64,000 nt of DNA. Origin: Caulobacteraceae bacterium. Lineage in GTDB: Bacteria > Pseudomonadota > Alphaproteobacteria > Caulobacterales > Caulobacteraceae. Shown here one piece after another: positions 18,204 to 57,404 of the stretch. Position 1 is the stretch's first letter. The number at the start of each line of letters is the position of its first letter. Location of the stretch: assembly GCA_027452265.1 (NCBI GenBank), contig DAIDGR010000110.1, positions 39,828 through 103,827 of the forward strand, in the 5' to 3' direction. The notes below the pieces were generated by a model. That model worked only from the letters and a program-made list of their open reading frames with translations, did not search any database and was not told the DNA's origin. The translations under genes were made by a program, and so were the position numbers.

Positions 18204-18317
18204 AGAGCACGATACGTTTTCGTGGAATCGGCGAAGACGCTGAATCGTGCTCTATCTTAAGCTCCCTGAGCGCGTTGCGAAGCGCCAGGTCGGTTCCGTC
18301 CAAACGCAACGCACTCT
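18204..18317 (+). repeat. Interspersed 114-bp two-hairpin repeat, copy A
   Basis: AGAGCACGAT(A)CGTTTTCGTGGAATCGGCGAAGACGCTGAATCGTGCTCT...GAGCGCGTTGCGAAGCGCC...CGCAACGCACTCT; shared by five loci in this window. Confidence 0.9.
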
Positions 18318-31494: not shown

Positions 31495-31608
31495 AGAGCG
31501 CGTTAGGTTGGGCTGGAGCCAACCCGGCGCTTCGCAACGCGCTCAGGGACTTTGAGCCAGAGCACGATTCAGCGACTTCGCCGATTCCACGAAAACGCAT
31601 CGTGCTCG
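31495..31608 (-). repeat. Interspersed 114-bp two-hairpin repeat, copy B (reverse orientation; overlaps 3' end of ribF)
   Basis: Reverse complement GAGCACGATGCGTTTTCGTGGAATCGGCGAAGTCGCTGAATCGTGCTCT...GAGCGCGTTGCGAAGCGCCGGGTTGGCTCC...AACGCGCTCT. Confidence 0.92.
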
Positions 31609-39986: not shown

Positions 39987-40100
39987 GGAGCACGATGCGT
40001 TTCCGCGGACTCCGCGAAAGCGCTGAATCGGGCTCGGTCTAAGAGTCCTTGAGCGCGCTGCGACGCGCCGGATTGGTTCCGTCCAACCGCAACGCTGGCG
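39987..40100 (+). repeat. Interspersed 114-bp two-hairpin repeat, copy C (most diverged)
   Basis: GAGCACGATGCGTTTCCGCGGACTCCGCGAAAGCGCTGAATCGGGCTC...GAGCGCGCTGCGACGCGCCGGATTGGTTCCGTCCAACCGCAACGC. Confidence 0.85.
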
Positions 40101-53302: not shown

Positions 53303-53416
53303 AGAGCACGATGCGCTTTTGTGGAATCGGCGAAGACGCTGAGTCGTGCTTTGTCTTAAAGTCCTTGAGCGCATTGCGAAGCGCCGGGTTGGCCCCATCC
53401 AAACGCAATGCACTCT
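53303..53416 (+). repeat. Interspersed 114-bp two-hairpin repeat, copy D
   Basis: AGAGCACGATGCGCTTTTGTGGAATCGGCGAAGACGCTGAGTCGTGCTTT...GAGCGCATTGCGAAGCGCCGGGTTGGCCCCATCCAAACGCAATGCACTCT; fills a convergent intergenic gap. Confidence 0.92.
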
Positions 53417-57290: not shown

Positions 57291-57404
57291 AGAGGACGAT
57301 GCGTTTTCGTGGAACCGGCGAAAACGCAGACTCGTGCTCGGTTTTAAAGCCCTTGAGCGCGTTGCGAAGCGCCGGGTTGGCTCCGTCCCAACGCAACACG
57401 CTCT
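57291..57404 (+). repeat. Interspersed 114-bp two-hairpin repeat, copy E
   Basis: AGAGGACGATGCGTTTTCGTGGAACCGGCGAAAACGCAGACTCGTGCTC...GAGCGCGTTGCGAAGCGCCGGGTTGGCTCCGTCCCAACGCAACACGCTCT. Confidence 0.9.

Follow-up and report, generated by a model that had tools for sequence, protein, structure and literature searches.

The divergent spacer between coxB (COX2) and tldD, both recognized by their Pfam domains, contains a 114-nt element of two hairpins joined by a linker (copy A, Table 1), which is separated by 28 nt from the likely start codon of tldD downstream. It is one of five copies in the window, by which we mean the whole 64,000-nt stretch of Caulobacteraceae DNA analyzed here, and the existence of all five was confirmed. 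The count in the original prediction of GANTC at 9 of 10 site positions across copies A–E was also reproduced when the site states were checked copy by copy. The TGA bulge of copy B (window positions 31569-31571) is at the same time the stop codon of the FAD synthetase/riboflavin kinase gene, as read from the end of the open reading frame at 31569.

Table 1 Repeat copies in the window, with the parts of copy A (neighbouring genes assigned by Pfam)
Feature	Position	Strand	GANTC site 1/site 2	Description
Copy A	18204-18317	+	GAATC/GAATC	Complete two-hairpin element
Hairpin 1 of copy A	18204..18253	+		Fold of copy A: outer stem AGAGCACGAT/ATCGTGCTCT and inner stem with apical loop; the 3' arm has a 3-nt bulge, TGA
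Site 1 of copy A	18225..18229	+	GAATC	Apical loop of hairpin 1
Site 2 of copy A	18241..18246	+	TGAATC	Bulge (TGA) joined to ATC from the outer stem
Hairpin 2 of copy A	18268..18316	+		Inverted relative of hairpin 1; without bulge, without GANTC
Copy B	31495-31608	-	GAATC/GAATC (minus strand)	TGA bulge provides the FAD synthetase/riboflavin kinase stop codon
Copy C	39987-40100	+	GACTC/GAATC, plus an extra GAGTC	Convergent spacer beside PNPase gene; most diverged of the five
Copy D	53303-53416	+	GAATC/GAGTC	Convergent spacer, AIM24-family and DUF1993 genes
Copy E	57291-57404	+	GAACC (lost)/GACTC	Flanked by two minus-strand genes

Architecture, distribution and relation to known repeats

Comparison across species revealed compensatory changes in 18 of the 24 pairs of the two-hairpin consensus, so that pairing has been kept while the stem sequences were replaced. 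Hairpin 2 is an inverted relative of hairpin 1: the model scores nearly as well on one strand as on the other in several relatives. A mirror bulge, TCA (within GATTCA), is present in hairpin 2 of many relatives and missing from that of copy A. The TGA/TCA bulge was seen again in many families in a bulge scan, which covered part of the hairpins, often shifted the register (TTG-AAT for TGA-ATC) and is used here qualitatively. The length of 114 nt, a multiple of 3, was found in 59 of 65 unique copies from the genome of origin, most of which have at least two stop-free frames. The terminal repeats are imperfect (AGCACGATGCG versus AGCGCGTTGCG); among the end tetramers CTAG is one of the commonest in this genome, with CCAG and others equally common, and it is dominant in relatives.

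The prediction that the repeat is dispersed was borne out. The host genome is a 2.73-Mb draft, 98.9% complete, which named relatives place within Caulobacteraceae close to Phenylobacterium, in a genus with uncultured MAGs among its members. In it, blastn retrieved 45 matches and a covariance model as many as 89, with antisense and partial hits among them, from which we estimate about 65-80 copies; the 65 unique ones are the basis of the site statistics below. Some are nearly identical, and some stand in head-to-tail arrays. Arrays of at least two elements were observed at L036:1-299, L041:2612-2839, L033:2521-2748 and L031:284-512, some of them at contig ends, where the assembly may break, so that copy number may be underestimated. 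Relatives were detected in 186 of 250 Caulobacteraceae genomes, spanning 15 of 22 genera and including genomes from the family of C. crescentus itself, and were thinner across Alphaproteobacteria (31 of 290 sampled genomes, a count that includes two Caulobacteraceae). No Rfam family matched the element at the gathering threshold or at E values up to 1, and neither plasmid nor phage collections contained a match.

A repeat carrying GANTC is not new in kind. The Caulobacter CcrM-associated intergenic repeats, or CIR elements, are said to have been described by Chen and Shapiro in 2003 (J Bacteriol 185:4997). CIR elements are about 110 nt long and consist of two arms and a linker; one arm bears GANTC in its terminal loop, the termini carry TA, and the many, mainly intergenic copies occur in Caulobacteraceae and other Alphaproteobacteria (PMC2229807, PMC10969869). 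They were reported to lie exclusively between genes and to have stop codons in each of the six frames (PMC2229807, PMC10969869), whereas neither what GANTC does in them nor how they move was settled (PMC2229807). The present repeat shares the length class (114 nt), the many copies, the two linker-joined arms and the loop GANTC (50/65 here, 10/32 in other genomes), and differs in having two in-frame genic copies, open frames in most copies and a 4-bp target duplication, a feature listed as unknown for CIR. Strict intergenic position and stop codons are observations on CIR rather than its definition; we therefore read them as a difference and keep the assignment at 'CIR-type'. The repeat is thus apparently of CIR type, having been set beside C. 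crescentus CIR1-4 by description, that is, by anatomy and taxonomy.

Other short repeats are less close. Rickettsia palindromic elements, to which ours can be likened by description, are also short, palindromic and found in frame in protein genes; they are known mainly from insertion within genes, whereas genic copies are rare here (two were found). Rhizobium-specific intergenic mosaic elements (RIME) are likewise dispersed palindromic repeats of Alphaproteobacteria, although to our knowledge no GANTC rule applies to them. In Phenylobacterium-group copies, hairpin 2 presumably has its likeness in RIME hairpins such as AACCGGTTCCCACTTTTCGG, and hairpin 2 of three loci of that group (L164, L153 and L167) reads like what we take to be rhizobial CCGATAACCGGTTCCCACTTATCGG-type repeats, a possible CIR-RIME link.

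Evidence for insertion and mobility

The tetramers flanking each copy have the form CNNG, and they were equal in 14 of the 52 non-tandem copies compared with 5.1 in shuffles (p = 5e-5); copies in tandem arrays were left out, as arrays repeat their junctions trivially. The matching concerned the two variable bases alone and was seen only for a total length of 114, which is the signature of a 110-nt core flanked by a target duplication of at most 4 bp. In relatives most copies have CTAG at either end, and a target duplication and a terminal repeat are indistinguishable there. An independent indication came from a copy lying in frame in an acyltransferase gene (Acyl_transf_3; L008:1501-1614, equivalent to G000:C110:13719-13832), where it adds 38 codons. 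In 8 of 13 congener orthologues, tblastn revealed that exactly these 38 residues, equal to 114 nt, are lacking at the position of the copy, as expected of an empty site. An N-formylglutamate amidohydrolase gene holds a second young copy, also in frame and close to the C-terminal end (L005:1312-1425; G000:C2). The 4-bp CNNG target duplication, the empty-site comparison with its gain of 114 nt and the two in-frame genic copies are new here, and a target site duplication is a trait of MITEs, the non-autonomous elements of DDE type.

These features make it probable that the element is a CIR-type, MITE-like non-autonomous mobile element in which GANTC is mainly a by-product of the hairpin signal. 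A 110-nt core, AGC...GCT, with its two hairpins inverted to each other, would insert at CNNG (in relatives almost always CTAG) and create the 4-bp duplication, most likely moved by a transposase acting in trans. The conserved signal would be a hairpin in which an ATC stem adjoins a bulge of three nucleotides, TGA, the bulge being the putative recognition feature. No transposase for the element was found, which counts against this reading.

REP-like movement by a RAYT (Y1_Tnp) transposase seems scarcely credible. In outline, bulged hairpins in inverted pairs, outside genes and near 3' ends, do look like the BIMEs of REP/RAYT systems. The element's own genome, however, contains no Y1_Tnp, nor do the single-contig genome G323 and the element-rich G004, and the domain occurs in 11 of 31 element-bearing genomes; RAYT was rejected as the mobilizer on these grounds. 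The target duplication differs as well, and we know of none that results from RAYT/IS200-type movement.

GANTC sites and CcrM

The density of GANTC in the elements, 16.8 per kb, is far above chance and compares with 1.55 for coding DNA and 2.57 for the remaining intergenic DNA, an enrichment that, since the copies are related, amounts to one fact rather than many. The window as a whole is poor in GANTC, with 111 occurrences against 279 expected from dinucleotide shuffles. Of the 65 unique copies, 50 retain site 1 and 52 retain site 2, which ranks the sites 32nd and 27th in conservation among 110 four-base windows; comparison with unpaired positions only gave p = 0.014. The original prediction that GANTC is retained beyond other positions is therefore weakly supported in this genome.

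It had also held that the central base varies, and here the two sites part. At site 1 this is the case (23 GAATC, 22 GACTC, 3 GAGTC and 2 GATTC), and no other of the 110 windows has so high a centre-minus-flank entropy. At site 2 it is not: A occupies the central position in 94% of the copies, and the conserved word is TGAATC, with N fixed too. Other genomes separated the sites further. Among 32 copies taken from them, 10 have GANTC at site 1; GGAA is fixed there while T and C change, and the site is probably a lineage-specific loop sequence. Site 2, on the other hand, is the second most conserved of 108 four-base windows in copies from other Caulobacteraceae genomes. As its GAATC arises where the bulge meets the stem, GANTC would come mainly as a by-product of the hairpin signal, and the pattern suggests that site 2 belongs to the invariant form of the hairpin. 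A TGA bulge from which GANTC follows automatically is a concrete alternative to selection by CcrM. The observation behind the prediction is confirmed, and its interpretation partly supported.

A ccrM gene is present in this organism, its absence having been named as grounds for abandoning the prediction. Its 364-aa product combines an N6_N4_Mtase and a RAMA domain, and the gene is on the contig of the window, ~18.5 kb upstream of it, so that the element's GANTC sites are probably methylated; the same is probably true of both sites in other CcrM-bearing hosts. Dam sites are known to couple IS10/IS50 transposition to the passage of the replication fork via hemimethylation. By analogy, GANTC at the hairpin foot could tie transposition of this element to fork passage, with site 2 selected as a CcrM site. 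We regard this as unlikely. The presence of ccrM would favour it, as would the deep conservation of site 2, mirrored in hairpin 2 of several families, and the strong local enrichment in a GANTC-poor genome. A constraint on GANTC alone would, however, let N vary, and N is nearly always A at site 2; moreover, hairpin 2 in this genome has no GANTC, and the motif is kept where CcrM was not detected. TGAATC conservation by itself fits both bulge recognition and a need for methylation, as both predict it.

Genomes in which CcrM was not detected bear on this choice. The RAMA domain was missing from 4 of 34 element-bearing genomes: G328 and G457, of one family and 99-100% complete, G390 (93%) and G478 (90%). 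With the host CcrM as query, G457 and G390 gave no match and G328 and G478 weak partial ones, versus E values below 1e-150 for positive genomes; the best match in G328 is a different DNA methylase, to which sequence assigns no specificity. The motif is kept in most of the G328 copies listed and mostly gone from G457. In G390, TGAATC is found in one hairpin of 8/8 copies, and the other hairpin keeps its TCA bulge as AAATTCAC, which is not GANTC; one bulge is thus retained where no GANTC forms. G390 and G328 still avoid GANTC (observed/expected 0.38-0.47), so the loss of CcrM may be recent, its gene may be absent from a draft (G390 being 93% complete) or another GANTC enzyme may have replaced it, and these genomes are accordingly suggestive, not decisive, in pointing to the bulge rather than GANTC as the selected feature. 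For the same reason GANTC avoidance was uninformative as a proxy for CcrM.

A broader version of the methylation argument would see an ancient mobile element spread across much of Alphaproteobacteria and gated by CcrM, in which the TGA-bulged hairpin provides a hemimethylatable GANTC, movement is tied to the fork and the motif lingers after loss of CcrM; we hold it to be rather improbable. GANTC as such does not emerge as the selected feature, given the low frequency of site 1 elsewhere, the fixed N of site 2 and its persistence without detected CcrM. A fixed hairpin shape combined with a local loop feature would explain the two sites better than dedicated cell-cycle methylation switches, which the comparisons suggest to be the weaker reading. 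With the target duplication, the empty site and the bulge alternative in hand, both the reason for GANTC in CIR-type repeats and their manner of movement become directly testable.

Genomic context

Gene neighbourhoods were classified with a simple codon-usage gene finder. Among 51 classifiable copies, 22 lie in convergent, 24 in tandem and 5 in divergent spacers, where the share of spacer bases would predict 5%, 50% and 45%, respectively. This context points to copies inserting, or surviving, at a distance from promoters and speaks against a general promoter role. The proposal in the original prediction of a dispersed CcrM/GcrA module acting on promoters or replication timing is therefore very improbable, although ccrM is present and copy A does lie close upstream of tldD. 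Divergent, promoter-bearing spacers are strongly avoided, site 1 varies between species and visual inspection of the two strands showed no agreement of either site with the GcrA motifs YGAKTCG/YGAKTCK (PMC7987155).

The same bias could mean that the element is useful to its host at the 3' ends of genes, in the manner of REP/BIME sequences, with transcribed hairpins that end or protect mRNAs, copies kept for that purpose and GANTC incidental. Besides the excess in convergent spacers, 18 of the 24 copies between tandem genes share one orientation (p = 0.02). Purifying selection against insertions into promoters would nevertheless give the same bias, the retained pairing can equally reflect a mobility signal, two young copies are inside genes and the gene calls come from a simple finder. 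We therefore judge such a function unlikely.

GANTC-rich repeats of this kind can inflate the apparent enrichment of CcrM sites in intergenic DNA. Two Phenylobacterium-group genomes carry a copy at the same place with near-identical flanks (L149:1501-1612 and L168:1501-1612), an orthologous insertion that can be used as a gauge of GANTC decay.
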